Positions 2,671 through 14,699 of a DNA stretch of 64,000 nt are shown piece by piece (position 1 is the stretch's first letter; each line of letters begins with the position of its first letter). The DNA comes from Salicibibacter cibi. Its GTDB lineage: Bacteria > Bacillota > Bacilli > Bacillales > Marinococcaceae. Location: assembly GCF_016495865.1 (NCBI RefSeq), contig NZ_CP054706.1:2976001-3040000 (forward strand). The letters are read 5' to 3'. Below the pieces are notes generated by a model. That model was not told the DNA's origin. It did not search any database and saw only the letters and a program-made list of their open reading frames with translations. The position numbers were made by a program, and so were the translations under genes.

Positions 2671-2775
2671 CATTGCCAGACCTAAATTGAAGGCGGTTGC
2701 TAAACCTCTGTTTACCGGAGGTCTTAGGAGCCGTAGATGATAGATCCTATTCTTTCATCTACGGCTCTTTTTTTT
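2671..2775 (+). promoter_or_regulatory. Two-state RNA leader (antiterminator versus terminator) of the NCS2 permease
   Basis: Two mutually exclusive RNA hairpins can be drawn. The terminator is a perfect 13-bp stem, GAGCCGTAGATGA 2728-2740 with TCATCTACGGCTC 2755-2767, followed by eight T residues. The alternative hairpin pairs CGGTTGCTAA 2694-2703 with TTAGGAGCCG 2724-2733 (nine of ten pairs, one G-G mismatch) and continues as ACCTCTG/CGGAGGT around a TTTAC loop. It takes GAGCCG away from the terminator, so it is the antiterminator. I do not recognise the consensus of any riboswitch class I know, including the purine aptamer, and a protein- or metabolite-binding element could lie in 2640-2733. 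Regulation by attenuation is strongly suggested; the signal is unknown. Confidence 0.75.
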
Positions 2776-2825: not shown

Positions 2826-4328
2826 ATGGATCAAAAAGCTTTTCATTACCCATGGTACAAGAAAGAGGACACGGATGCTTTTTTCGCTTTATTTCAAAAC
2901 AACCTTGCCAATTTTGTTATAATTGCGATCACAATGCTTGGGATGGGTTTTTCAACGAGCATTGTTTTTGGACAGGTGATCCCGGGAGCGGCCGTAGCAG
3001 TATTGTTCGGTAACCTCTACTACGCCTACACGGCGAGTCGTTTGGCAAAAAGGGAACAAAGAGTTGATGTAACAGCATTATCTTACGGGATAAGTACACC
3101 CGTTATGTTCATCTTCTTATTCGGTGTTTTATTGCCTGCCATGACGCTCACCGATGACCCGGAGTTAGCTTGGCGAATAGGGGTGGCTGCCGCCTTTATA
3201 AGTGGGCTGGTTGAGGTATTGGTTAGCCTTATCGGAAGATGGATTCAAAGAAATTTACCGCGAGCAGCAATGCTGGGTGCTATCAGTGGCGTCGCTTTAA
3301 CATTTATCGCAGGTGAAATGTTATTTATGACTATGGAGATACCGGTAGCGGGACTTATAGCGTTGGCTATTATTATCGTTGGTGTTATCGGAAAGGTAAC
3401 CATGCCATTTAAGATCCCGGCTTCCCTATTTGCCATTATTATCGGCACAATTTTGGCCTATGCGTTTGGGCCAGCCAATATTGGTCAGATTACGGAAGGT
3501 TTGGCTTATGTGGGCTTTTATCCATTTATACCCACTTTAGCACCGTTTGAAGGGATGACTTATCTTTTCGGAGCCATGATTGGCATATTCGCGGTCGTTC
3601 TGCCTATCACCATCTATAATGCGATCGAAACAATGAATAATGTGGAGGCAATGGAAGCAATCGGTGATAAGTATGATGTCCGAGAGTGTCAGGCTGTTGA
3701 TGGCGCAGGAACAATGTTGGGGTCTTGCTTTGGAGGGGCCTTCCCTACTACCGTTTATCTTGCCACAGTCGGGGCTAAACATATGGGGGCGGGTCGAGGC
3801 TATAGCATTTTAAACGCAATTGTATACACACTTACAGCCGTGTTCGGTTTAATCGCTGCCGTCTCGGAAATTATCCCTGTAGCCGTCATAGCACCCGTTC
3901 TTGTTTATGTGGGAGCTTCCATGGTATCAACGGCATTTGAAACGAATGCGACGAAATACTATCCTGCTGTCATTATCGCCATGCTCCCTTATTTCTCCAA
4001 TTACTTAATGACTCGTTTTGATGGCGATGCACCAGAGGTCGTACAAGATATATCGACAGGGATTGTGCCACTTGGGGACGGAGCCATGTTCACTGCCCTC
4101 ATTTTAGGTGCCATTACTGTTTTTATCATTGACGGAGACTATCTGAAAGCAACCGCATTTTCCTTGATCGGTGCTGGCTTTTCCTTCTTTGGCTTAATGC
4201 ATGCACCGGAACTATCATTAAATGCCTCGCCGGATTTTGCATTAGGATATATCGTTATAGGTGTATTCTTTCTATATCAGCACTTTAGAACGATGCAAAC
4301 TGAAAAGAAACATACATTGGACATTTGA
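2826..4328 (+). CDS. NCS2-family nucleobase permease
   Basis: The product is a 500-residue membrane protein with about 12-14 hydrophobic segments typical of the nucleobase-ascorbate/NCS2 transporters that import xanthine, uracil or related bases with protons. The central region holds acidic positions seen in this fold (NAIETMNNVEAMEAIGDKYD near residue 270 and the following GGAFPTTVYLATVG). It starts at ATG 2826 behind GAGGGGG. A promoter and an attenuation leader precede it and an amidohydrolase follows 30 bases downstream, so the pair is probably co-transcribed for import and deamination of a purine. Exact substrate is not predictable here. Confidence 0.8.
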   Translation: MDQKAFHYPWYKKEDTDAFFALFQNNLANFVIIAITMLGMGFSTSIVFGQVIPGAAVAVLFGNLYYAYTASRLAKREQRVDVTALSYGISTPVMFIFLFGVLLPAMTLTDDPELAWRIGVAAAFISGLVEVLVSLIGRWIQRNLPRAAMLGAISGVALTFIAGEMLFMTMEIPVAGLIALAIIIVGVIGKVTMPFKIPASLFAIIIGTILAYAFGPANIGQITEGLAYVGFYPFIPTLAPFEGMTYLFGAMIGIFAVVLPITIYNAIETMNNVEAMEAIGDKYDVRECQAVDGAGTMLGSCFGGAFPTTVYLATVGAKHMGAGRGYSILNAIVYTLTAVFGLIAAVSEIIPVAVIAPVLVYVGASMVSTAFETNATKYYPAVIIAMLPYFSNYLMTRFDGDAPEVVQDISTGIVPLGDGAMFTALILGAITVFIIDGDYLKATAFSLIGAGFSFFGLMHAPELSLNASPDFALGYIVIGVFFLYQHFRTMQTEKKHTLDI

Positions 4329-4358
4329 AAAATTTATAGTTAAGGATGCGTGAAAATA

Positions 4359-5702
4359 ATGTCAAAAACACTTATTAAAAATGCTGAAATTGTAACGGTT
4401 AATGAAAAAAACGAGATTATATACGGCGATTTATTGATTGAAAATGATCGCATTGCCCAAATTGATTCTCATATTGATGCGACAGGGATAGACAATGTGA
4501 TTGATGCCCATAACAGAACGATTATCCCGGGATTTATTCATACCCATATTCATTTGTGTCAGACGCTTTTCCGGGGCCAGGGCGACGATTTAGAGTTACT
4601 CGATTGGCTTCAAAAAAGAATATGGCCTCTTGAAGCAGCCCATGATGAAGAATCAAGTTATTATTCAGCGATGCTGGGCATCGGGGAACTTATCCGAAGC
4701 GGAACTACGACGGTCGTTGATATGGAGACGGTTCATCATACCGGCTCTGCTTTAGAAGCCATTGCTGAAAGCGGGATCCGGGCAGTGAGCGGAAAATGCA
4801 TGATGGATTATGGGGATGATGTTCCCCTGTTACTGCAAGAAAATACAGACGCGTCCATTCAGGAAAGCGTCGATTTATTGGAGAAATGGCATAATCACGA
4901 TAATGGCAGAATACAATACGCCTTTTCACCCCGATTTGTCGTGTCGTGCTCGAAAGACTTGTTGACACAAGTGCGGGATCTATCCGCCAATTATGATGTT
5001 CATGTTCACTCTCATGCAGCAGAAAACAGAGGAGAAATTGAAATCGTTGAACAACAAACCGGCATGCGCAACGTTACTTATCTCGATCACATTGGCTTAG
5101 CCAACGAGCGATTAATTCTTGCGCATTGTGTTTGGTTGGATGATGAAGAAAAATCCATTATTAAAAACAAAGGTGTTAACGTGAGCCATTGTCCCGGATC
5201 TAACCTGAAATTGGCATCCGGTGTAGCCGAAGTACCCGATATGTTGGATAATGACATACGCGTAAGTTTAGGTGCAGACGGCGCTCCCTGCAATAACAAT
5301 TTAGACATGTTGAATGAAATAAGATTGGCAGCAACGATCCATAAACCGGCCCACGGTCCAACGACGATGAAAGCTCAATCAGTTCTTCGCATGGCTACCA
5401 TCGAAGGAGCAAGAGCTTTAGGGTTGGAAAATGAAATTGGCAGCCTAGAGGTTGGCAAGAAAGCAGATCTATCGATTTTGAATTTAAATGACTTCCATGT
5501 TTACCCATCATTCGGTGTTGATCCTATTTCCCGTGTCGTGTATTCAGCTACAAGAGCTGACATCGAAACAACGATGATTAACGGTCAGCCTGTGATGGAA
5601 AACGGAGCAATGAAAACGATGGATAAGGATATTATCTTAAAAGAATCCAATAAATCGATTGACCGACTTTTAAAACGCATGCCTACTATTCAATACAGTT
5701 AG
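4359..5702 (+). CDS. Amidohydrolase-superfamily deaminase, probable purine deaminase
   Basis: This 447-residue enzyme carries PGFIHTHIHLCQ (HxH, about residue 65), HSHAAE, HCVWLDDEE and LGADGAPCNNNLDM with the catalytic Asp. The architecture and length fit the ATZ/TRZ branch that contains guanine deaminase-like, 8-oxoguanine deaminase and 5'-deoxyadenosine deaminase enzymes. ATG 4359 is preferred because AAGGA precedes it at a usable distance; an upstream in-frame GTG at 4350 is too close to it. Co-transcription with the NCS2 permease and proximity to xanthine dehydrogenase make conversion of guanine (or 8-oxoguanine) to xanthine (or urate) the most economical role. That role is inference. 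It is a distant paralogue of the gene at 233. Confidence 0.8.
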   Translation: MSKTLIKNAEIVTVNEKNEIIYGDLLIENDRIAQIDSHIDATGIDNVIDAHNRTIIPGFIHTHIHLCQTLFRGQGDDLELLDWLQKRIWPLEAAHDEESSYYSAMLGIGELIRSGTTTVVDMETVHHTGSALEAIAESGIRAVSGKCMMDYGDDVPLLLQENTDASIQESVDLLEKWHNHDNGRIQYAFSPRFVVSCSKDLLTQVRDLSANYDVHVHSHAAENRGEIEIVEQQTGMRNVTYLDHIGLANERLILAHCVWLDDEEKSIIKNKGVNVSHCPGSNLKLASGVAEVPDMLDNDIRVSLGADGAPCNNNLDMLNEIRLAATIHKPAHGPTTMKAQSVLRMATIEGARALGLENEIGSLEVGKKADLSILNLNDFHVYPSFGVDPISRVVYSATRADIETTMINGQPVMENGAMKTMDKDIILKESNKSIDRLLKRMPTIQYS

Positions 5703-5727: not shown

Positions 5728-5756
5728 TTGACAATATAAAAATCTTTCGGTAAACT
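5728..5756 (+). promoter_or_regulatory. Candidate sigma-A promoter of the xanthine dehydrogenase operon
   Basis: TTGACA at 5728-5733, a 17-base spacer and TAAACT at 5751-5756 form a plausible vegetative promoter just after the amidohydrolase gene. It would put about 180 nt in front of the riboswitch aptamer, which is long, so a closer unrecognised promoter is possible. Confidence 0.5.
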
Positions 5757-5943
5757 TTATGTTAACTTTATAAATGTTGTGAGTTTAAATGTGTTATGTA
5801 AGCGCTTTTTACTCATGTGCATGCGCTGGTTTCGTATTTTTTCTGTTCACGGGACAAATATGGGTCGCAGCTTTAGATAATCTTATTCTGAGATTAACAT
5901 CTATTGTTGCGGTCTTTTTTTGTTAAAAAACACTTATTTTCCT

Positions 5944-6042
5944 TTTTTCGTATAACCTCAATGATTGGGTTGAGGGTCTCTACGGGAAACCGTAAATTTC
6001 CCAAGCTACGAAAAAGATTTCTTCCCATTGGAAATCTTTTTT
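5944..6042 (+). promoter_or_regulatory. Purine-class riboswitch with terminator, ON-switch geometry
   Basis: The element has the full purine aptamer layout. P1 is TTTTTCGTA 5944-5952 with TACGAAAAA 6007-6015, J1/2 begins TAA, P2 is CCTCAA/TTGAGG, J2/3 is GTCTCTAC 5976-5983, and P3 is GGGAAA/TTTCCC with the hallmark loop CCGTAAA. The base just before the P1 3' strand (6006, equivalent to position 74) is C, as in guanine-type aptamers. L2 (TGATTGGG) and J3/1 (AAGC, one base longer) depart from the usual sequence. The terminator stem AAAAAGATTTC 6011-6021 with GAAATCTTTTT 6031-6041 shares five A residues with the P1 3' strand, so a stabilised P1 would weaken the terminator. This predicts activation of the operon by ligand, as in pbuE rather than xpt. 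Confidence 0.8.
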
Positions 6043-6093
6043 GTGGCTTTTTTAGTGTCAAATTAAACATTTACATTCTAAGGAGGCTTTTTG

Positions 6094-6582
6094 ATGAAAA
6101 CATTTCAATTTCATGTGAATGGGAAGAATGAAAAGGTTTATTGTCCACCAGCTAAAACACTGCTTGATGTCTTACGTGATGATTTAGAACTGACAGGCAG
6201 TAAGGAATGCTGTGGCAAAGGGGAATGTGGGTCATGTTCGGTCATGATCAATCATGAGGTGATTTGTTCTTGTCTCGTTTTAGTCGGCCAAATCGAAAAT
6301 GAGGACGTCATCACTGTTGAAGGCATTGGACTTGAAGAAAACATGGATATTATACAAGAAGCTTTTATAGAGGAAGGTGCGACACAATGCGGATATTGTA
6401 CACCTGGTATCATCGTTGCCACCCGATCTTTTATAAACAACATCGAGCACATACCATCCATTGATGATGTAAAAACCGCTCTTGGTGGTAATTTATGTCG
6501 GTGTACCGGTTACCAAAAAATTATCAAGGCTGTCCAATCGGCGGCCAAAAACAAATTCGCTCAACACAGTGATACACATTGA
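6094..6582 (+). CDS. pucE: Xanthine dehydrogenase, [2Fe-2S] subunit
   Basis: The product is the 162-residue small subunit of a molybdenum hydroxylase. A plant-type ferredoxin domain at the N-terminus has the cysteine pattern C40, C45, C48, C60, and a four-helix domain follows with CGYCTPG and GNLCRCTGY supplying the second cluster. It passes electrons from the molybdenum centre to the FAD subunit. ATG 6094 is preceded by AAGGAGG. It is the first gene after the riboswitch, and its stop overlaps the next start. The gene symbol follows B. subtilis pucE by analogy; substrates other than xanthine are possible for this family. Confidence 0.88.
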   Translation: MKTFQFHVNGKNEKVYCPPAKTLLDVLRDDLELTGSKECCGKGECGSCSVMINHEVICSCLVLVGQIENEDVITVEGIGLEENMDIIQEAFIEEGATQCGYCTPGIIVATRSFINNIEHIPSIDDVKTALGGNLCRCTGYQKIIKAVQSAAKNKFAQHSDTH

Positions 6583-7193
6583 GGAAAAATAACAATCATT
6601 ACGTAGCTCTATTACTTGCCGCCGGTCGCTCCGAACGTATGGGGACCGTGAAAGCTCTGCTTCCCTGGGGCGAGGAAAGTTTGATCACATACCAAATCAA
6701 TCAACTTAAAAATATCGGGATTGGCAAAATCATCGTTGTGACAGGCTATAAGTCTGAACGAATAACCGAAGCTATTAAACGATATGGCGTACATATTGTA
6801 TGGAACGACCGTTTTGATGAAGGCAAATGTTCATCGATCAGAAAAGGCGTTAAGGCCATTCGTGGCAACCCAAAAGGCATTTTAATCAGCACTGTCGACC
6901 AACCCGTTTCACATGTGACCTTAAGTCTGATTGTGGATCAATTCAATAAAACGAACCCTTCCATTATTGTTCCGTTATATCAACAAAAACGAGGGCATCC
7001 TGTACTTTTCCACGGCAGTCTAAGGCAAGAGTTGTTAAACGTTAATGAAGAAACGAAAGGGCTACGAAACATTTTACAAAAATTCAGCCATCAAATATCC
7101 TATTTGGACGTTAACGACCCTGATATTTTGTTTAACTTTAACACTCCTGCCGACTATTTACCACAGACCACAAAGGCGAAAGGAGAATCATAA
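6579..7193 (+). CDS. pucB: MobA-like nucleotidyltransferase (Mo-cofactor cytidylyltransferase type)
   Basis: The 204-residue protein opens with the nucleotidyltransferase signature LLLAAGRSERMGTVKALLPWG and has the Asp of the metal site in STVDQP near residue 108. Relatives such as MocA and B. subtilis PucB prepare the molybdopterin cofactor (cytidylation) for xanthine-dehydrogenase-type enzymes. The frame begins at TTG 6579, which overlaps the TGA of the preceding gene, implying translational coupling; no better start lies upstream. It overlaps the FAD-subunit gene by one base at its end. Function is inferred from family and from its place inside the operon. Confidence 0.8.
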   Translation: MRKNNNHYVALLLAAGRSERMGTVKALLPWGEESLITYQINQLKNIGIGKIIVVTGYKSERITEAIKRYGVHIVWNDRFDEGKCSSIRKGVKAIRGNPKGILISTVDQPVSHVTLSLIVDQFNKTNPSIIVPLYQQKRGHPVLFHGSLRQELLNVNEETKGLRNILQKFSHQISYLDVNDPDILFNFNTPADYLPQTTKAKGES

Positions 7194-8068
7194 TGAAGGT
7201 ATCCGATATGGAAATGATTTCGCCAACATCCGTCAATGAATGTTTGCAAGTGCTTTCCAACCGTCAAAACGAAAGTCGATTGATCGCCGGGGGAACAGAT
7301 GCTGTTGTTCGTATGAAGGAAAAAAAGTGGATGCCCAATATATGGATCAATATCAGAAACTTGAATAAGCTTCGTTATATCTATGAAGATGAGAACGGCA
7401 TACACATTGGCCCAATGACAACACATACCGATATTGTGCAATCCGATCTGCTTCTAAACAAAGCAGATGTATTAACACATGCAGCGAAAGAAGTTGGAGC
7501 AACCCAAATGCAAAATATGGGTACATTAGGCGGCAATATTGGCACTGCTTCTCCTGCAGGCGACACAATCCCTGCCCTCTACGTATTGGATGCCAAAATT
7601 GAACTACGCTCACTTCATGATACAAGAATTGTTCCGATTCAAGATTTCTTTGTTGGTCCGGGGAAAACCGTCATACATTCTGACGAGATCATTTCTGATA
7701 TCATCGTTCGCCCTCAAGAAAAATATGAAATCGGCATATTTGAAAAACTTGGGCCACGTAAAGCGCAATCTATTTCGATTGTCAATTTTGCTACATCGTT
7801 AACATTGGATTCAAAAAAGCGCCATTGTACCGCCGGGAAATTGGCTTTTGGTTCAGTAGGCCCAACCATTATCCGCGCAAAGAAATGTGAATCCATGCTT
7901 TTATTGGATCGTCTGGACGAAAACTTGATTCAAAACATGGCAAAACTTGCTTGGAAAGAAGTTGCCCCCATTTCTGATGTGCGTGCGTCTGCTAATTACA
8001 GAAAAGATATGGCTAGTGCTTTGTTAGAAAGAGGGTTATATAGGCTAATGAAAAGGTGGGGAGAATAA
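7193..8068 (+). CDS. pucC: Xanthine dehydrogenase, FAD-binding subunit
   Basis: The 291-residue protein is the CoxM/XdhB-type flavin subunit. The FAD pyrophosphate loop is visible as RLIAGGTDAVVRMK near residue 30 and as TLGGNIGTASPAGDTIPAL near residue 110. It carries electrons from the iron-sulfur clusters to the final acceptor. It begins at ATG 7193 with AAAGGAG upstream, overlapping the preceding stop as TAATG, and ends directly against the start of the molybdenum subunit gene. Confidence 0.88.
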   Translation: MKVSDMEMISPTSVNECLQVLSNRQNESRLIAGGTDAVVRMKEKKWMPNIWINIRNLNKLRYIYEDENGIHIGPMTTHTDIVQSDLLLNKADVLTHAAKEVGATQMQNMGTLGGNIGTASPAGDTIPALYVLDAKIELRSLHDTRIVPIQDFFVGPGKTVIHSDEIISDIIVRPQEKYEIGIFEKLGPRKAQSISIVNFATSLTLDSKKRHCTAGKLAFGSVGPTIIRAKKCESMLLLDRLDENLIQNMAKLAWKEVAPISDVRASANYRKDMASALLERGLYRLMKRWGE

Positions 8069-10390
8069 ATGAATCGCATCGCCGAGCATAAAAATGACAC
8101 AAAAAACCGATATCACTGGATTGGCAAACGGGTTCCACGTATCGATGGGCCCGAGAAAGTGACAGGCAAACTCCAATATATGACGGACAGACATTACCCT
8201 GACATGGTATGGGGGAAGGTGCTCAGATCAAAGTATCCCCATGCTCAAATTACAAATATAGATACGACTCAAGCAGAAGCATTACCGGGGGTTATCTGTA
8301 TATTAACATATGAGGATATTCCAGGCTTTAATGGGTTTGGTATTGTCACGCCCGATCAGCCTGTTCTTTGTGAAGACGTTGTTCGCTGTACGGCAGATGC
8401 TGTTGCACTTGTTGCCGCTGAAACAAACGAAATCGCCGAAGAAGCCCTTCGTCTCATTCAAGTGGATTATCATCCGTTGGGGGTCGTAGACGATGCAGAA
8501 TACGCTATGACCGAGCAAGCCCCACCTCTACACCCGGACGGAAATATTCATGGCCACTTCAAAATACAAAACGGTGATATCAACCACGCATTCGAAGAAG
8601 CCGACTACATTTTTGAAAACACCTATTATTCACCTCGTCAAATGCATGCTTTCATAGAGACTGAAGGCGGTTGGGGCAAACTTGAAGAAGACGGTACGTT
8701 AACCATTCAATGTCCTGCTCAATACGCCTACAGAGATCGGCTGCAGATTTCACGTGCCCTCGGCATAAACCCGGAGAGCATCCATGTGATATCGAGCCCT
8801 AACGGTGGGGGGTTCGGGGGCAAAGATGAAATTACTGTACAAATTTACCTTGCATTGCTCGCCCTTCATAGTGGTGGACGTCCCGTGAAAATTCATTTGA
8901 ATCGAGAGGAATCCGTCCAAGCAAGTCTAAAAAGGCACCCTTTTAAGGTACACGTTAAAACCGGTGTAAACAAGGACGGACGAATTATTGCCAACCAAGT
9001 AAGAGCTGTTGCTGATACAGGTGCCTACGCCTCACTGGGGCCGGCTGTTACATCACTGGCCGTCGAGCATGCTTGCGGACCATACACAATCCCCAATGTT
9101 GACATTGAAGGGTTTTGCGTGTATACCAATAACGGTATCGCAGGCGCTTTCAGGGGTTTTGGTGTTAATCAGGTTTGTGTCGGCATTGAAACACATATAG
9201 ACATGACCGCCGAAAAGATCGGTATGGATCCGATTGAGATCAGAAAGAAAAATGCCTATCGTCAAGGCGACATTTCTAGTGTCGGACATGTGGTTAAGTC
9301 CAGTGTCGGTACTCACCAGACGTTATATAAAGCTCAACATTGTGATCTGTGGGTCAATCGGGAAACTTACAAAAAACAAACGACTGAACCATGGAAAAAA
9401 AGAGGCGTCGCTGTCGCAACCTCCTTCCACGGTGTTGGTATGGGGATTGATACACCCGATTACGGCGCAGCGTCCATCGAATTGTTGCCTGACGGTCACA
9501 TGAAAGTAGCGGTTGGGTGTGAAGAAATCGGCACCGGTAATGGCACTGTCTACGCCCAAGTTTGTGCAGAGCTACTCCACTGTGACATTTCCCACATATC
9601 AGTCGTTCAGGGGGATACGGCTGAAACGTTGGATGGGGGAACGATTTCCGCTTCCAGATCCACGTATACGGGTACAAGAGCGATTGCGACCGTCGCTCCC
9701 CAGATGATTCAACGGCTGATTGAAGCTGCAGGACATATACTCGATGTCCCTACAAAAAATATGGAAATCGAAAATGGGTCTATAATTAACAAAAATAATC
9801 AATCCATTTTACTTTCTTTTCGTCAAATTTATGATTACTTAGTGAAGAACCAAATTTCTACGACAGTGCAAGGGCACTTTTATTTACCGAAAGAAAAGAA
9901 CGAAATTCAAGGTTCCGGCGGAGCACCTCATCATATTTACGGGTACTTGACGCATGTCGTTATGGTTGAAGTGGACACATTGACCGGCGAAACGGATGTT
10001 TTACGTGTTGTCTCGATACCAGACTGTGGGAAAGTGATGAATCTACAAGGTCTTGAAGGGCAAGCTGAAGGGGGAGCCGTCATGGGGATTGGCTATACAT
10101 TGTTCGAAGATGTCATCATCGAAGATGGGCATAATAAAACCAACAATTTATCTGATTATATCATCCCGACCATTCTGGAAACACCTGAAATTGAAACGAT
10201 ACCGGTTGAAGACCCTGAACCTTCTAACCCTTTCGGCGCCAAAGGGATCGGCGAAGTAGTGATGATCCCAATTATTCCCGCTATTATGTCCGCCATCTAC
10301 GATGCCACCGGTGCAAAGGTAAGACATCTGCCTGCAACGCCGGAACGTATTTACGAAGCAATGAAACCCATTCAGATGTCATCGGGGTGA
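8069..10390 (+). CDS. pucD: Xanthine dehydrogenase, molybdenum-binding subunit
   Basis: The 773-residue catalytic subunit has the usual a/b hammerhead N-terminus and the two molybdopterin-binding halves. The molybdenum-site glycine loop GGGFGGK is near residue 250, and AFRGFGVNQ near residue 360 includes the Arg/Phe region of the active site. The catalytic glutamate lies in FGAKGIGEVVMIP near residue 727. It hydroxylates purines (hypoxanthine, xanthine) at the molybdenum centre. The gene starts immediately after the FAD subunit gene, with GGTGGGGAGA as ribosome-binding site. Length is normal and no frameshift is seen. Confidence 0.88.
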   Translation: MNRIAEHKNDTKNRYHWIGKRVPRIDGPEKVTGKLQYMTDRHYPDMVWGKVLRSKYPHAQITNIDTTQAEALPGVICILTYEDIPGFNGFGIVTPDQPVLCEDVVRCTADAVALVAAETNEIAEEALRLIQVDYHPLGVVDDAEYAMTEQAPPLHPDGNIHGHFKIQNGDINHAFEEADYIFENTYYSPRQMHAFIETEGGWGKLEEDGTLTIQCPAQYAYRDRLQISRALGINPESIHVISSPNGGGFGGKDEITVQIYLALLALHSGGRPVKIHLNREESVQASLKRHPFKVHVKTGVNKDGRIIANQVRAVADTGAYASLGPAVTSLAVEHACGPYTIPNVDIEGFCVYTNNGIAGAFRGFGVNQVCVGIETHIDMTAEKIGMDPIEIRKKNAYRQGDISSVGHVVKSSVGTHQTLYKAQHCDLWVNRETYKKQTTEPWKKRGVAVATSFHGVGMGIDTPDYGAASIELLPDGHMKVAVGCEEIGTGNGTVYAQVCAELLHCDISHISVVQGDTAETLDGGTISASRSTYTGTRAIATVAPQMIQRLIEAAGHILDVPTKNMEIENGSIINKNNQSILLSFRQIYDYLVKNQISTTVQGHFYLPKEKNEIQGSGGAPHHIYGYLTHVVMVEVDTLTGETDVLRVVSIPDCGKVMNLQGLEGQAEGGAVMGIGYTLFEDVIIEDGHNKTNNLSDYIIPTILETPEIETIPVEDPEPSNPFGAKGIGEVVMIPIIPAIMSAIYDATGAKVRHLPATPERIYEAMKPIQMSSG

Positions 10391-10396
10391 TGGCAC

Positions 10397-11230
10397 ATGT
10401 TTAACCCAAAATTATTTGAATTGTTATCTGATTCACTGAAAAAACAACATGAAATCGCGTTAATCACCATAACGTCTCACTCTACGGAAAATTTAGTTGG
10501 AGCGAAATTATTACTTTGGCCTGATGGCAGTATGTATAGCGACAGAGACTATTCTAAATTTTTTTCAGAACAACTCATTGAACACTGTCTACCACTATTA
10601 CTGGAACAAAAAACGAAAAGTATCACGTTTGAATGGCGAGAGGGAAACGTGGAATGTTACGTTGAATCATTTACCCCTCCCTCTCGTTTAATTGTAGCAG
10701 GAGCCGGGCATGTATCTGAACCCGTTGAGAAAATGGGACGTATGCTCGGTTTCTCCGTCACGGTTATCGATGATCGGAAATCATTCGCCAATCGGGATAA
10801 CTTCCCTGTAGCCGACGAAATTATCTGTATGCCTTATCTTGATTTTTTCAAGGACGTCCATATTACACCTAAAACGTACATTTTACTCCTTACACGTGGG
10901 CATAAATTCGATGTCATTAGTTTACAACAATTACTTAAACGAGAAGAAAAGCTCGACGCACGTGAACGAACGGCTTATATCGGAATGATTGGAAGCAGAC
11001 GACGCATAGCCGGTGTTTTTGAACAATTAAAAAGTGAATTTACCAATCACCATTTCAAAAACATCTACTCACCTGTTGGATTAGATATTGGCGCCCAGTC
11101 CCCTGCCGAGATTGCCGTAAGCATTTTCGCTGAACTCCTGAAAGTCCAAAATAAATCTACCGGCCATTCAAAACGAGAAAAGATTAAAGACTATGAAAAA
11201 CTAAAATTTTATGAAAGGAATCGATCATGA
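10397..11230 (+). CDS. XdhC-type maturation protein, Rossmann-domain half
   Basis: This 277-residue protein contains the XdhC C-terminal Rossmann domain: RLIVAGAGHVSEPVEKMG near residue 97, then TVIDDR, LLTRGHKFD and the terminal signature YIGMIGSRRR with GLDIGAQSPAEIAVSIFAE. XdhC proteins bind the molybdenum cofactor, take part in its sulfuration and insert it into xanthine dehydrogenase. In B. subtilis PucA and most relatives the short XdhC_CoxI domain comes first in the same polypeptide. Here that domain is encoded by the next gene, which overlaps by ATGA. The first 90 residues are a separate, poorly conserved N-terminal segment. Confidence 0.8.
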   Translation: MFNPKLFELLSDSLKKQHEIALITITSHSTENLVGAKLLLWPDGSMYSDRDYSKFFSEQLIEHCLPLLLEQKTKSITFEWREGNVECYVESFTPPSRLIVAGAGHVSEPVEKMGRMLGFSVTVIDDRKSFANRDNFPVADEIICMPYLDFFKDVHITPKTYILLLTRGHKFDVISLQQLLKREEKLDARERTAYIGMIGSRRRIAGVFEQLKSEFTNHHFKNIYSPVGLDIGAQSPAEIAVSIFAELLKVQNKSTGHSKREKIKDYEKLKFYERNRS

Positions 11231-11544
11231 ACCATCTAGCCTTTTTTGATCAGGTTATATCTATTCGCAAGAACAAACAAAAAGCAGCTTTGGCTACTGT
11301 CATACGTACAAAAGGGTCCACTCCCAGAAAAACCGGAACTAAAATGATTATTTATTCCGACTATACACTAGAGGGAACGATTGGAGGTGGTTGCGGTGAA
11401 GGTGAAGTGATTGAAAAAGCGCTTATCGTTATGGACACGGGCAGACCCCAACACCATCACGTCGATTTAACAGATGGCCTCTTTTACGAAGATGGCGGAA
11501 TTTGCGGGGGGATTCTGGATGTGTTTATTGAACCGATCATTTGA
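11227..11544 (+). CDS. XdhC/CoxI N-terminal domain protein
   Basis: The 105-residue protein is the free XdhC_CoxI domain, with ALATVIRTKGSTPRKTG and GTIGGGCGEGEVIE, and ends with EDGGICGGILDVFIEP. The latter motif contains the conserved Cys of the family, which is thought to take part in sulfur transfer to the molybdenum cofactor. It is translationally coupled to the Rossmann-half gene upstream through an ATGA overlap. Together the two genes rebuild one XdhC but with the domains in reversed order and on separate chains. Confidence 0.82.
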   Translation: MNHLAFFDQVISIRKNKQKAALATVIRTKGSTPRKTGTKMIIYSDYTLEGTIGGGCGEGEVIEKALIVMDTGRPQHHHVDLTDGLFYEDGGICGGILDVFIEPII

Positions 11545-11579: not shown

Positions 11580-12926
11580 ATGAGTTCAAACCTGGAGCCA
11601 GAAACGAATAAAAGGTTGAGGAACAATAAAATTGAGCAGTACTTTGGATTCAGCGAGAAAAATACGAATTTTAAAAAAGAATCAATCGGTGGTATCACCA
11701 CTTTTATGGCGATGTCGTATATATTGTTTGTGAATGCTGCGATTTTAAGCGATGCAGGAATGGATGAAGGCGCTGTATTCGTGGCTACCGGTCTTACGGC
11801 AGCTATTTCTTGTATTATTATGGCTTTGTGGGCAAACTATCCGATCGGTTTAGCCCCCGGGATGGGATTGAATGCGTTTTTTGCCTATACAGTCGTCATA
11901 GGTATGGAGATACCATGGGAAACAGCGCTTGCCGGATTTCTTGTAGCCGGTGTAATCTTCCTTCTTATGACCTTAACAGGACTAAGGGAAAAAGTGATCG
12001 ATGCCATTCCGCCTCAATTAAAGGATGCCACTGTCGCAGGGATCGGATTATTCATCGCCTTTATCGGGCTGCAAAATGCGGGGGTTGTCGCTGGCGATGA
12101 AGAAACATTATTAACGCTTAGTAATATTACGTCGCCCTCCACCATGTTGGCACTGTTCGGCCTTATTGTAACTGCTATAATGCTTGTGCGAGGTGTTAAT
12201 GCCGCCATTTTTTTCGGCATGATCATCACAGCTGTAGCCGGCGTTATTACTGGTTTGATCCCATTCCCATCGCAAGTCGTTTCTACTCTACCGAGTTTAG
12301 CACCCACTTTTGGTGTTGCGATTACTGAATTGCCAAGCATTTTACAACCGGAAATATTCACCGTGGTCTTTACCGTACTCTTCGTGAACTTCTTTGATGC
12401 CACCGGTACAATTATCGCCGTTGCTAAAAAAGCTGGATTTTTACAAGAGGATAAATTACCTAGAGCTAAACAAGCATTGGGTGCTGATGCGATTGCTTCT
12501 GTCGTTGGTTCAATCTTAGGCACATCGAATACGAATTCTTACATTGAATCGGCATCGGGCGTTGCCGCGGGTGCACGGACAGGTTTTGCTTCATTAGTTA
12601 CGGCTGGTTGCTTCCTCTTATTCTTATTCTTATCGCCGCTTCTGGAGGTAGTCACTGATGCCGTAACGGCTCCGGCATTAATTATTGTTGGTGTTTTAAT
12701 GGCTTCTTCATTGGGGTCAATAAAGTGGGATAAAATGGAATATGCTATACCTGCTTTTATCACTGTTATTGCTATGCCTTTAACTTATAGTATTGCCAAT
12801 GGACTGGCCTTAGGGTTTATCGCTTATCCGATTTTAAAAATTGTAAAAGGCGAATACAAGGATATTCACCCGATCATGTATTTACTGCTCGTTATTTTTA
12901 TTGCTTACTTCATTTGGTTAGCTTAA
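11580..12926 (+). CDS. AzgA-type (NCS2) purine permease
   Basis: The 448-residue membrane protein belongs to the AzgA/PbuG branch of purine permeases that import hypoxanthine, guanine or adenine. Typical landmarks are FKKESIGGITTFMAMSYILF at the N-terminus, GLAPGMGLNAFFAY near residue 97, LFVNFFDATGTI near residue 267 and GTSNTNSYIESASGV near residue 315. ATG 11580 follows AAAAGGGGGAG. It is the last intact gene of the riboswitch-controlled operon, 35 bases after the XdhC domain gene, so purine uptake and oxidation would be induced together. Confidence 0.85.
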   Translation: MSSNLEPETNKRLRNNKIEQYFGFSEKNTNFKKESIGGITTFMAMSYILFVNAAILSDAGMDEGAVFVATGLTAAISCIIMALWANYPIGLAPGMGLNAFFAYTVVIGMEIPWETALAGFLVAGVIFLLMTLTGLREKVIDAIPPQLKDATVAGIGLFIAFIGLQNAGVVAGDEETLLTLSNITSPSTMLALFGLIVTAIMLVRGVNAAIFFGMIITAVAGVITGLIPFPSQVVSTLPSLAPTFGVAITELPSILQPEIFTVVFTVLFVNFFDATGTIIAVAKKAGFLQEDKLPRAKQALGADAIASVVGSILGTSNTNSYIESASGVAAGARTGFASLVTAGCFLLFLFLSPLLEVVTDAVTAPALIIVGVLMASSLGSIKWDKMEYAIPAFITVIAMPLTYSIANGLALGFIAYPILKIVKGEYKDIHPIMYLLLVIFIAYFIWLA

Positions 12927-13527: not shown

Positions 13528-14107
13528 GGGACAACCCAAGGAGGTGATTCAGGAAATACGGTGGTCCACATCCAAATCTCTCACTATAAGGATCCACTAT
13601 GGACAAAACTACCATAACAACAACATTTATGGAAGCTATACAGCCGTTAAAGATCAAAAAGGTTTTAGAAGATTTTTTAGGGACCGATACGTCAAAAAAT
13701 TAACCTGTGAAAAATTGGTTGCTTTGATGATTTATGCACAGATCTATCAAATGCCAAGTGCAAAGCAGCTAGCTTGACCCTCAAGAATAGCGAAGAACTC
13801 CAAGGAAGCGTGGATCTTGCCTCGATTAGCGATTCGCAGATGACACGCCGGTTGCGTGACATCAACACTGATGTTAGCCAAGCCTTGTTTTCCGACATCG
13901 TTAGCCAAATGAAACGAGAGATTCATCCACCTCATCGCTTGCAGATGATGAGCCCCATCTATCTTGTGGATGCTTCAATCATTCCGCTTTGTCTCTCTCT
14001 GTCAATGGGCGACCTTTCGTCCCAAACAAGGAAAAGGTGGCTTGCCTGCCGGAGGGATTGCGCAGGAGAATGCTGTTCTCAAACCAGCCGTTCATGCCGA
14101 TCATACG
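13528..14107 (+). pseudogene. Remnant of an IS4-family transposase (DUF4372-type N-terminus)
   Basis: Fragments in different frames assemble into an IS4-like transposase: MDKTTITTTFMEAIQPLKIK (from 13599), then KLTCEKLVALMIYAQIYQMP, then DLASISDSQMTRRLRDINTD followed by the catalytic-region piece YLVDASIIPLCLSL. Frameshifts and stops interrupt it, and it ends near 14107 inside the sequence GGIAQENAVLKPAVHADHT, well before the C-terminal Glu region. It abuts a piece of an unrelated amidase gene, so the junction marks a deletion or recombination event. Confidence 0.75.
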
Positions 14108-14262
14108 ATTTGAATGAATTGAAAGATTTTGACGGTGAATCATTCGAAGAAGCGATGACTAGAGCAGGGTTTAAAAAGGGCGAAAAAGAAGCCCGGGAAG
14201 ACATAAAAGCTTTTATTGAATTACATGTTGAACAAGGAAATGTGTTGGAACAAGTGTCACCT
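14104..14262 (+). pseudogene. Internal fragment of an allantoate-amidohydrolase-like M20 enzyme
   Basis: The plus strand encodes LNELKDFDGESFEEAMTRAG through IKAFIELHVEQGNVLE, the middle part of the allantoate amidohydrolase / N-carbamoyl amino acid hydrolase family, including the metal-ligand region ELHVEQG. No start or C-terminus is present. In an intact gene this piece would directly follow the segment now found in opposite orientation at 14265-14699, showing that an inversion broke the gene. Confidence 0.75.
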
Positions 14263-14264
14263 GA

Positions 14265-14699
14265 CCGGCAATATATTTGGAGCCCCACATGCAAAAAGGA
14301 AAGCGGCTGCCTTCTTCTTCGGCCAAGTAAAAGACTTCAATATTGCGTACCGGTTGTCCATAGGTTTCTTTTAAATACTTCACGGCTAAATATCCGCCTA
14401 GTACACCTAACTGCCTGTCATAATAGCCACCGGATTTAACAGTATCCACGTGTGAGCCCGTTAAAATCGTCTCTTTCTTATTTTCTGAGCCTTTCAGACG
14501 GACAAACAAGTTACCTACCTCATTGAAATAGGTTTGAAAACCTTCAACTTCGAACAATTGCTTCATGGCTTGCTGAGCTTCAGACCATGACTCGCTGTCT
14601 AGTAATTCCTCCGTTGTAAACATCCTTGCCAAATTGACCAAGCCAATTTAGTTTTTCAAGGATTTCTCGTTCCCACTGGTCTTCGTTTCCGAAATTCAT
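14265..14699 (-). pseudogene. N-terminal fragment of an allantoate-amidohydrolase-like M20 enzyme
   Basis: The minus strand from ATG 14699 encodes an N-terminus (EILEKLNWLGQFGKD), then after a frameshift near 14610 continues in the next frame with ESWSEAQQAMKQLFEVEGFQ, the metal-site motif TGSHVDTVKSGGYYDRQLGV, and FYLAEEEGSRFPFCMWGSK. It breaks off at about 14270, where the inverted fragment begins. Allantoate amidohydrolase would act on ureide products of urate breakdown, so its loss suggests the purine degradation route in this strain stops short or uses another locus. Confidence 0.8.

Follow-up and report, generated by a model that had tools for sequence, protein, structure and literature searches.

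The leader of the xanthine dehydrogenase (xdh) operon, about 330 nt long, carries two transcription attenuators in series. The first is a compact RNA element, here called element II (5825–5921), in which an intrinsic terminator and a hairpin with the loop UGUU..ACG compete, and the second, downstream of it, is a purine riboswitch with the appearance of an ON switch. The window, i.e., the 64,000-nt stretch of the Salicibibacter cibi genome that was analyzed, covers positions 2,976,001 to 3,040,000 of contig NZ_CP054706.1; the positions below refer to it, and features lie on its + strand unless stated otherwise. The initial annotation had described this leader as a single switch, which corresponds to the second of the two attenuators, the first having been overlooked. 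Both elements, their mutually exclusive folds, their conservation and their links to genes were computed, and on balance we favor the view that an element II held by a small DUF2294 (PF10057) protein and a guanine-class ON aptamer together gate the xdh operon.

The leader likely starts at a sigma-A-like promoter, TTGACA-N17-TAAACT (5728–5756), with 10 of 12 consensus matches; the call is weak when taken alone, with two sites found against 1.4 in shuffled sequences, and a TTGACA-type promoter was recognized by eye upstream of element II in three relatives too. Between promoter and element II lies TGTAAGCGCTTTTT (5797–5810), which resembles a catabolite-responsive (cre) site. In its antiterminator form, element II is a hairpin (5825–5871; −15.9 kcal/mol, z = −3.80, none of 200 shuffles reaching this stability) with the loop UGUUCACG; the base of the hairpin is paired with the first terminator's 5′ arm. 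The terminator form (5863–5921) consists of a stem at 5863–5914 and a U tract at 5915–5921. In the four xdh leaders that contain element II, 99 alignment columns have a mean identity of 80%. Fourteen full-length copies favored the terminator, and the antiterminator fold was obtained in 14/14 copies truncated before the terminator 3′ arm, six of the 14 folded copies being close Cytobacillus-type sequences. Eight hairpins folded alone gave z-scores from −2.38 to −5.63, and in each case 0 to 6 of 200 shuffles were equally stable. When 11 sequences were aligned in the terminator form, 8 of 20 pairs had changed on both sides (a value reached by none of 500 shuffles, and slides clearly worse), a count flattered by the relatedness of the sequences and by the derivation of the structure from this very alignment; in the antiterminator alignment, 5 of 15 pairs had changed on both sides and several pairs were broken in some sequences.

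No Rfam 15 family reached its gathering score over element II, all E-value-mode Rfam matches touching 5825–5921 had E above 1, and the one sub-gathering overlap concerned the terminator stem of a single copy, L145, with RF04344, a plastid 3′ UTR family (32.6 bits vs. 48.4, E 0.016). The open-access literature held nothing matching such an RNA element. ANTAR targets are alike in that a hairpin overlaps an intrinsic terminator; according to the accessible text of PMC3369931, however, they consist of two hairpins with hexaloops carrying A1 and G4, whereas element II shows a single hairpin, with UGUU..ACG as its loop, and it was rejected as an ANTAR antitermination site of the kind described there. 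A search for ANTAR proteins gave no match in the host genome and likewise none in the control genomes.

Two home-made models, R1 (4 sequences) and R2 (11 sequences), were used to follow the distribution of element II. R1 had matches in 5 of 299 genomes of the host order and R2, at E 0.01, in 24 of 397, at least five of the latter being doubtful by eye; E-values of such models are rough and lists at E 0.01 contain chance matches. Six of the 24 genomes contain model sequences (the host itself, G020, G132, G227, G269, and G343, the copy in G343 being identical to L126). The genomes are samples of a larger group, RNA searches over more than 40 genomes used stricter filters, and near relatives inflate the counts for both element II and DUF2294, which are not counts of independent events. 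The host genome has four R2 matches within 9 kb: one on the − strand of the contig at 2972967, the weakest of the four (E 0.004), and three on the + strand, at 2974541, 2978685 and 2981818. The match at 2978685 is window 2685–2772 (40.3 bits; hairpin z = −4.02) and precedes the gene of a 500-aa protein that matches no Pfam family (2826–4328), and that at 2981818 is the copy in the xdh leader (window 5818–5920).

The genes behind element II copies are mostly those for a permease, amidohydrolase, oxygenase or xdh, and include xdh, NCS2 permeases, Rieske oxygenases, an allantoinase-like amidohydrolase, a DUF3100 gene and one of the creatininase family. For the Rieske and DUF3100 genes, a part in purine breakdown is putative. 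Cytobacillus and its relatives hold just the purine switch in their xdh leader, and there element II precedes a permease gene divergent from xdh; the tandem of element II and purine switch before xdh was found in one clade of four genomes. A second leader combining a hairpin-terminator with a purine aptamer was seen at L202:1245–1347 (− strand), with a DUF2294 gene, a hairpin-terminator, a purine aptamer and the gene of an ABC solute-binding protein in a row, where the R2 match is weak (E = 0.25).

A DUF2294 gene lies directly upstream (same strand, within 500 nt) of 21 of the 32 element II copies tested, about eleven of these 21 being close Cytobacillus-type loci, and 11 copies, both window copies included, have no such gene directly upstream. 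The first eight adjoining proteins, 114–136 aa long, match PF10057: six reach its cut-off of 23 bits (one at exactly 23) and the other two score 22.6 and 22.2. Seen from the protein side, a DUF2294 profile of 16 sequences had matches in 27 of 299 genomes, from which 30 loci were taken. In eighteen of these, R2 found a downstream match on the same strand with an E-value of about 0.01 or lower (13 of the 18 apparently used in neither model, with four of the thirteen, L194–L197, from one genus), and 12 had none at that E-value. The loop hairpin itself stands behind 14 of the 30 loci, against a mean of 0.54 and a maximum of 4 in 200 shuffles. In the host genome there is one DUF2294 gene of the profile type, at contig positions 2973155–2973505 and about 8.3 kb from element II in the same cluster, and the presence of one such gene along with several attenuators suits a factor acting in trans.

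The hut operon offers a matching layout: hutP is followed by an attenuator and then by the hut genes, and HutP is the antiterminator. The likeness is in the order of small regulator gene, attenuator and catabolic genes; the difference is that the RNA site is another one and that the structural model of DUF2294 (pLDDT 91.1) has no clear relative of known structure in the PDB that would point to RNA binding. By analogy, DUF2294 is best read as a putative HutP-like antiterminator of element II; the genes may also merely travel with purine genes. In the open-access literature, DUF2294 was mentioned only in a fungal secretome study. For mpsC of S. aureus, a PF10057 member by Pfam name, the accessible text of PMC6689103 gives no phenotype upon deletion and describes the gene as dispensable for MpsAB function.

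It is also conceivable, if rather doubtful, that element II is a small-molecule riboswitch (e.g., for urate, xanthine or allantoin) and DUF2294 an unrelated neighbor, a reading that agrees with the compact conserved hairpin and its near-invariant loop, with the purine-catabolism genes behind the copies, and with the fact that no protein partner of element II is known. It does not account well for the fact that, at those 21 of 32 copies, the DUF2294 gene immediately precedes the attenuator and stands ahead of the regulated genes, nor for what is found elsewhere in the family. Of 200 genomes sampled from the host class, 113 contain PF10057, and among 30 classic loci taken from these the UGUU..ACG loop hairpin occurs at only two, while another hairpin-plus-terminator, chosen after looking, is common to eight. 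Two downstream genes were tested at loci with this other hairpin (L224 and L231 among them), and both encode Sbt_1 bicarbonate transporters. That some classic DUF2294 genes are followed by a different hairpin, ahead of bicarbonate-transporter genes, is what one would expect of a protein family whose RNA sites vary.

The second attenuator contains a genuine purine riboswitch aptamer, as the initial annotation had claimed: the RF00167 covariance model gave a match at 5928–6028 (+ strand) with 67.8 bits, above the gathering score of 37, and the host genome has three RF00167 matches, this one among them. As read from the sequence, the guanine-class aptamer extends from P1 to P1′ over 5943–6015, with P1 (5943–5952/6007–6015), J1/2 UAA (5953–5955), P2 (5956–5962/5969–5975), L2 GAUUGG (5963–5968), J2/3 GUCUCUAC of 8 nt (5976–5983), P3 in a 6-pair reading (5984–5989/5997–6002), L3 CCGUAAA (5990–5996), and J3/1 AAGC (6003–6006). 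The three stems, the CCGUAAA loop and the C at the specificity position (C74 = 6006) that had been proposed could thus all be located, and L2 is unusual in having 6 nt instead of 7. J3/1 is indeed longer, with the amount depending on the register: Infernal places one inserted base next to one deleted P3 base, from which the earlier "one base longer" derives, and the 6-pair P3 leaves four nucleotides instead of the usual two (AC), i.e., two bases more. U47, a ligand contact in guanine riboswitches, is found at 5977. The letters for the predicted kissing-loop contact are present as well (GG of L2 at 5967–5968, CC of L3 at 5990–5991). The pocket has U22 (5953), U51 (5981), and C74, which the accessible text of PMC9295807 names as ligand contacts of guanine riboswitches, and all guanine-I class letters are present.

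Folding of 5943–6058 (−41 kcal/mol, z = −5.48, 0 of 200 shuffles equally stable) revealed a second intrinsic terminator at 6003–6053 (+ strand), with a 20-pair stem (6003–6022/6030–6049) followed by U residues. The complete J3/1, C74 included, and the entire P1 3′ strand make up its 5′ arm. In the window, the terminator thus excludes P1, as expected of an ON transcription riboswitch: ligand-held P1 and terminator are mutually exclusive, and the ligand should open the operon. The ON geometry and the overlap were recognized before; the five A residues then given were too few, and the span given, 5944–6042, ends inside the terminator, which runs to about 6053. The same geometry, counted when a downstream stem takes up at least 7 of the 9 nt that begin with C74, was obtained in 17 of 19 related leaders, with the script choosing the T-run most favorable to it and about ten of the 19 being near-identical Cytobacillus-type leaders; in the other two of the 19 folded, L131 and L100, the ON terminator was not seen. 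C74, found by the script via the string CUACG, is present in all 19, and 18 were seen before the xdh Fe-S gene.

RF00167 occurs in 29 of 29 genomes of the host family, with 102 matches in all, at least 62 of which were inspected, and the same operon lies behind the same aptamer type in three other genomes of the family (G001, G010, and G020). A pattern drawn from these and related xdh aptamers, in which U51 is fixed by the pattern itself, retrieved 16 records from genome contigs, including Cytobacillus, Neobacillus, Pseudalkalibacillus, Ornithinibacillus, Geomicrobium, and Natribacillus. The xdh Fe-S gene comes next in 15 of them, and the sixteenth record (L124) ends 322 nt later. Read by eye, J3/1 is AAGC in the window and Natribacillus, UGC in Geomicrobium, CAC in G001, GGC in Neobacillus, and UC, AC, or CC elsewhere, i.e., 2, 3, or 4 nt long among orthologous xdh leaders, with C74 retained.

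The pbuE adenine riboswitch is also of the ON type and follows the same platform logic, its terminator taking the P1 3′ strand; it has U74, whereas the window aptamer has C74, which points to a guanine-type pocket. The P2 arms of the window aptamer nearly match those of adenine-type ON switches of the same family (L041, L042, L045, and L077), so descent from a pbuE-like switch via U74 to C is possible. Other purine switches were observed alongside these. One group with an ordinary J3/1 stands directly before an amidohydrolase gene homologous to window 4350–5702 (L049, L051, L052, L054, and L074, with L049 being the one for which the ON fold was computed), and an ON-shaped switch at L056:573–4767 precedes xerD-deoB and two purine nucleoside phosphorylase genes. 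Another group, with J3/1 ending in GC, precedes a second, more distant NCS2-type permease (L048, L055, L060, L064, L065, L066, and L072); in the folds of this group the terminator takes J3/1 and P1′, the sequence of L055 being too short at its 3′ end to show this.

The ligand is predicted to be a 6-oxopurine, with guanine as the likeliest candidate and hypoxanthine or xanthine as possible ones. The initial annotation had suggested that the altered junction shifts preference toward xanthine, hypoxanthine or urate, which would make this a new ligand class. We regard this as unlikely, despite the AAGC in place of AC, the xdh context, and the J3/1 insertions that the published xanthine-II and guanine-II variants also carry (PMC9295807, accessible text). 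U51 and C74 are those of the guanine class, the by-eye length of J3/1 varies from 2 to 4 nt while the operon stays the same, and the extra bases are paired inside the terminator, which explains them without a change of ligand; a ligand change through J3/1 would therefore seem unlikely.

Membership in one of these two published classes has slightly less in its favor still. In the accessible text of PMC9295807, xanthine-II is an ON class with U51G and a two-base J2/3 insertion, found beside dioxygenase, allantoinase and xanthine dehydrogenase genes, and guanine-II keeps U51, has a one-base J2/3 insertion, acts as an ON switch in Paenibacillus and is most commonly associated with PRT genes. The window aptamer resembles xanthine-II in being an ON switch near xanthine dehydrogenase genes, and guanine-II in its ON geometry, its retained U51 and C74 and its J3/1 insertion; the G001 ortholog, which has an A–A mismatch at the foot of P3, could also be read as having one extra J2/3 base. 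However, the window has U at 5981 and a J2/3 of 8 nt as in guanine-I, without the U51G and two-base J2/3 insertion of xanthine-II or, compared with the published description of the class, the one-base insertion of guanine-II. With guanine-I (RF00167), the accessible text of the same source indicates a shared three-stem junction, CCGUAAA loop, U22, U51, and C74; guanine-I commonly lowers expression when guanine is plentiful, whereas in the window switch the terminator is of the ON type, L2 has 6 nt and J3/1 is longer. The geometry of an ON catabolic switch stands and its novelty is reduced: ON control of purine breakdown by the purine-riboswitch fold is already precedented, with ON variants published there, one of them beside xanthine dehydrogenase genes.

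The operon behind the leader was outlined earlier as one of purine oxidation, cofactor maturation and uptake, and protein family matches bear this out. It encodes a xanthine dehydrogenase family Fe-S subunit (PucE/XdhC-like, 6094–6582), a MocA-like molybdenum cofactor nucleotidyltransferase (6579–7193), an FAD-binding subunit (XdhB-like, 7193–8068), a molybdopterin-binding subunit (PucD-like, 8069–10390), an XdhC maturation factor in two ORFs (10397–11544), and a permease of the NCS2 xanthine/uracil family (11580–12926, PF00860). Pfam matches are above their cut-offs and the best NCBIfam matches of the xdh genes are below theirs, so the name xanthine dehydrogenase is a prediction from family and context. 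The XdhC ORFs overlap, with the C-terminal half first (10397–11230) and the N-terminal half second (11227–11544), and this order is kept in relatives. Upstream of the leader lies an amidohydrolase gene (4350–5702; best NCBIfam match 5′-deoxyadenosine deaminase, above cut-off). That element II is a mere terminator of this gene, without regulation, would fit its position between the stop at 5702 and the xdh operon, and is improbable given the promoter-like site between the two and the conservation of the loop and competing antiterminator before other genes too.

Further genes were observed in the surroundings. A single ORF at 13774–14439 joins an IS4-transposase-like piece to an allantoate-deiminase-like piece, so a ureide gene here looks broken. 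About 3–15 kb before the window, the same cluster (L178:1557–12845) contains a bacterial-microcompartment shell protein with UbiD, a UbiX-like ORF (N-terminus only), an isochorismatase-type hydrolase, an allantoinase-like amidohydrolase, and an adenine-deaminase-like protein.

For the ligand, the direction of control in the cell, the role of DUF2294 and the AND behavior, we infer the following scheme. At the first stage, element II left alone would form the terminator at 5863–5921; if its upstream UGUU..ACG hairpin were held, presumably by the small DUF2294/PF10057 protein encoded about 8.3 kb away and in the manner of HutP, the antiterminator would form and the polymerase would continue. At the second stage, the P1 3′ strand and J3/1 would enter the 20-pair terminator when no ligand is present, and with a 6-oxopurine bound, P1 would be held and the operon read. 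Since both gates would have to be open (an AND gate), the operon would be induced by purine abundance. More tentatively, and with somewhat less than even confidence, DUF2294/PF10057 could be a family of RNA-binding antiterminators, each reading a hairpin attenuator behind its own gene, namely the UGUU..ACG hairpin for purine transport and catabolism in Bacillales and another for the Na+/bicarbonate transporter Sbt_1; in the clade of the window, the former would be placed in series with an ON purine riboswitch to give a two-input xdh gate. If true, this would provide a function for a widespread family that has none, element II would be an additional compact RNA element outside the Rfam 15 families, and a riboswitch and a candidate protein-read attenuator would be joined in one leader, controlling the breakdown of purines rather than their synthesis.
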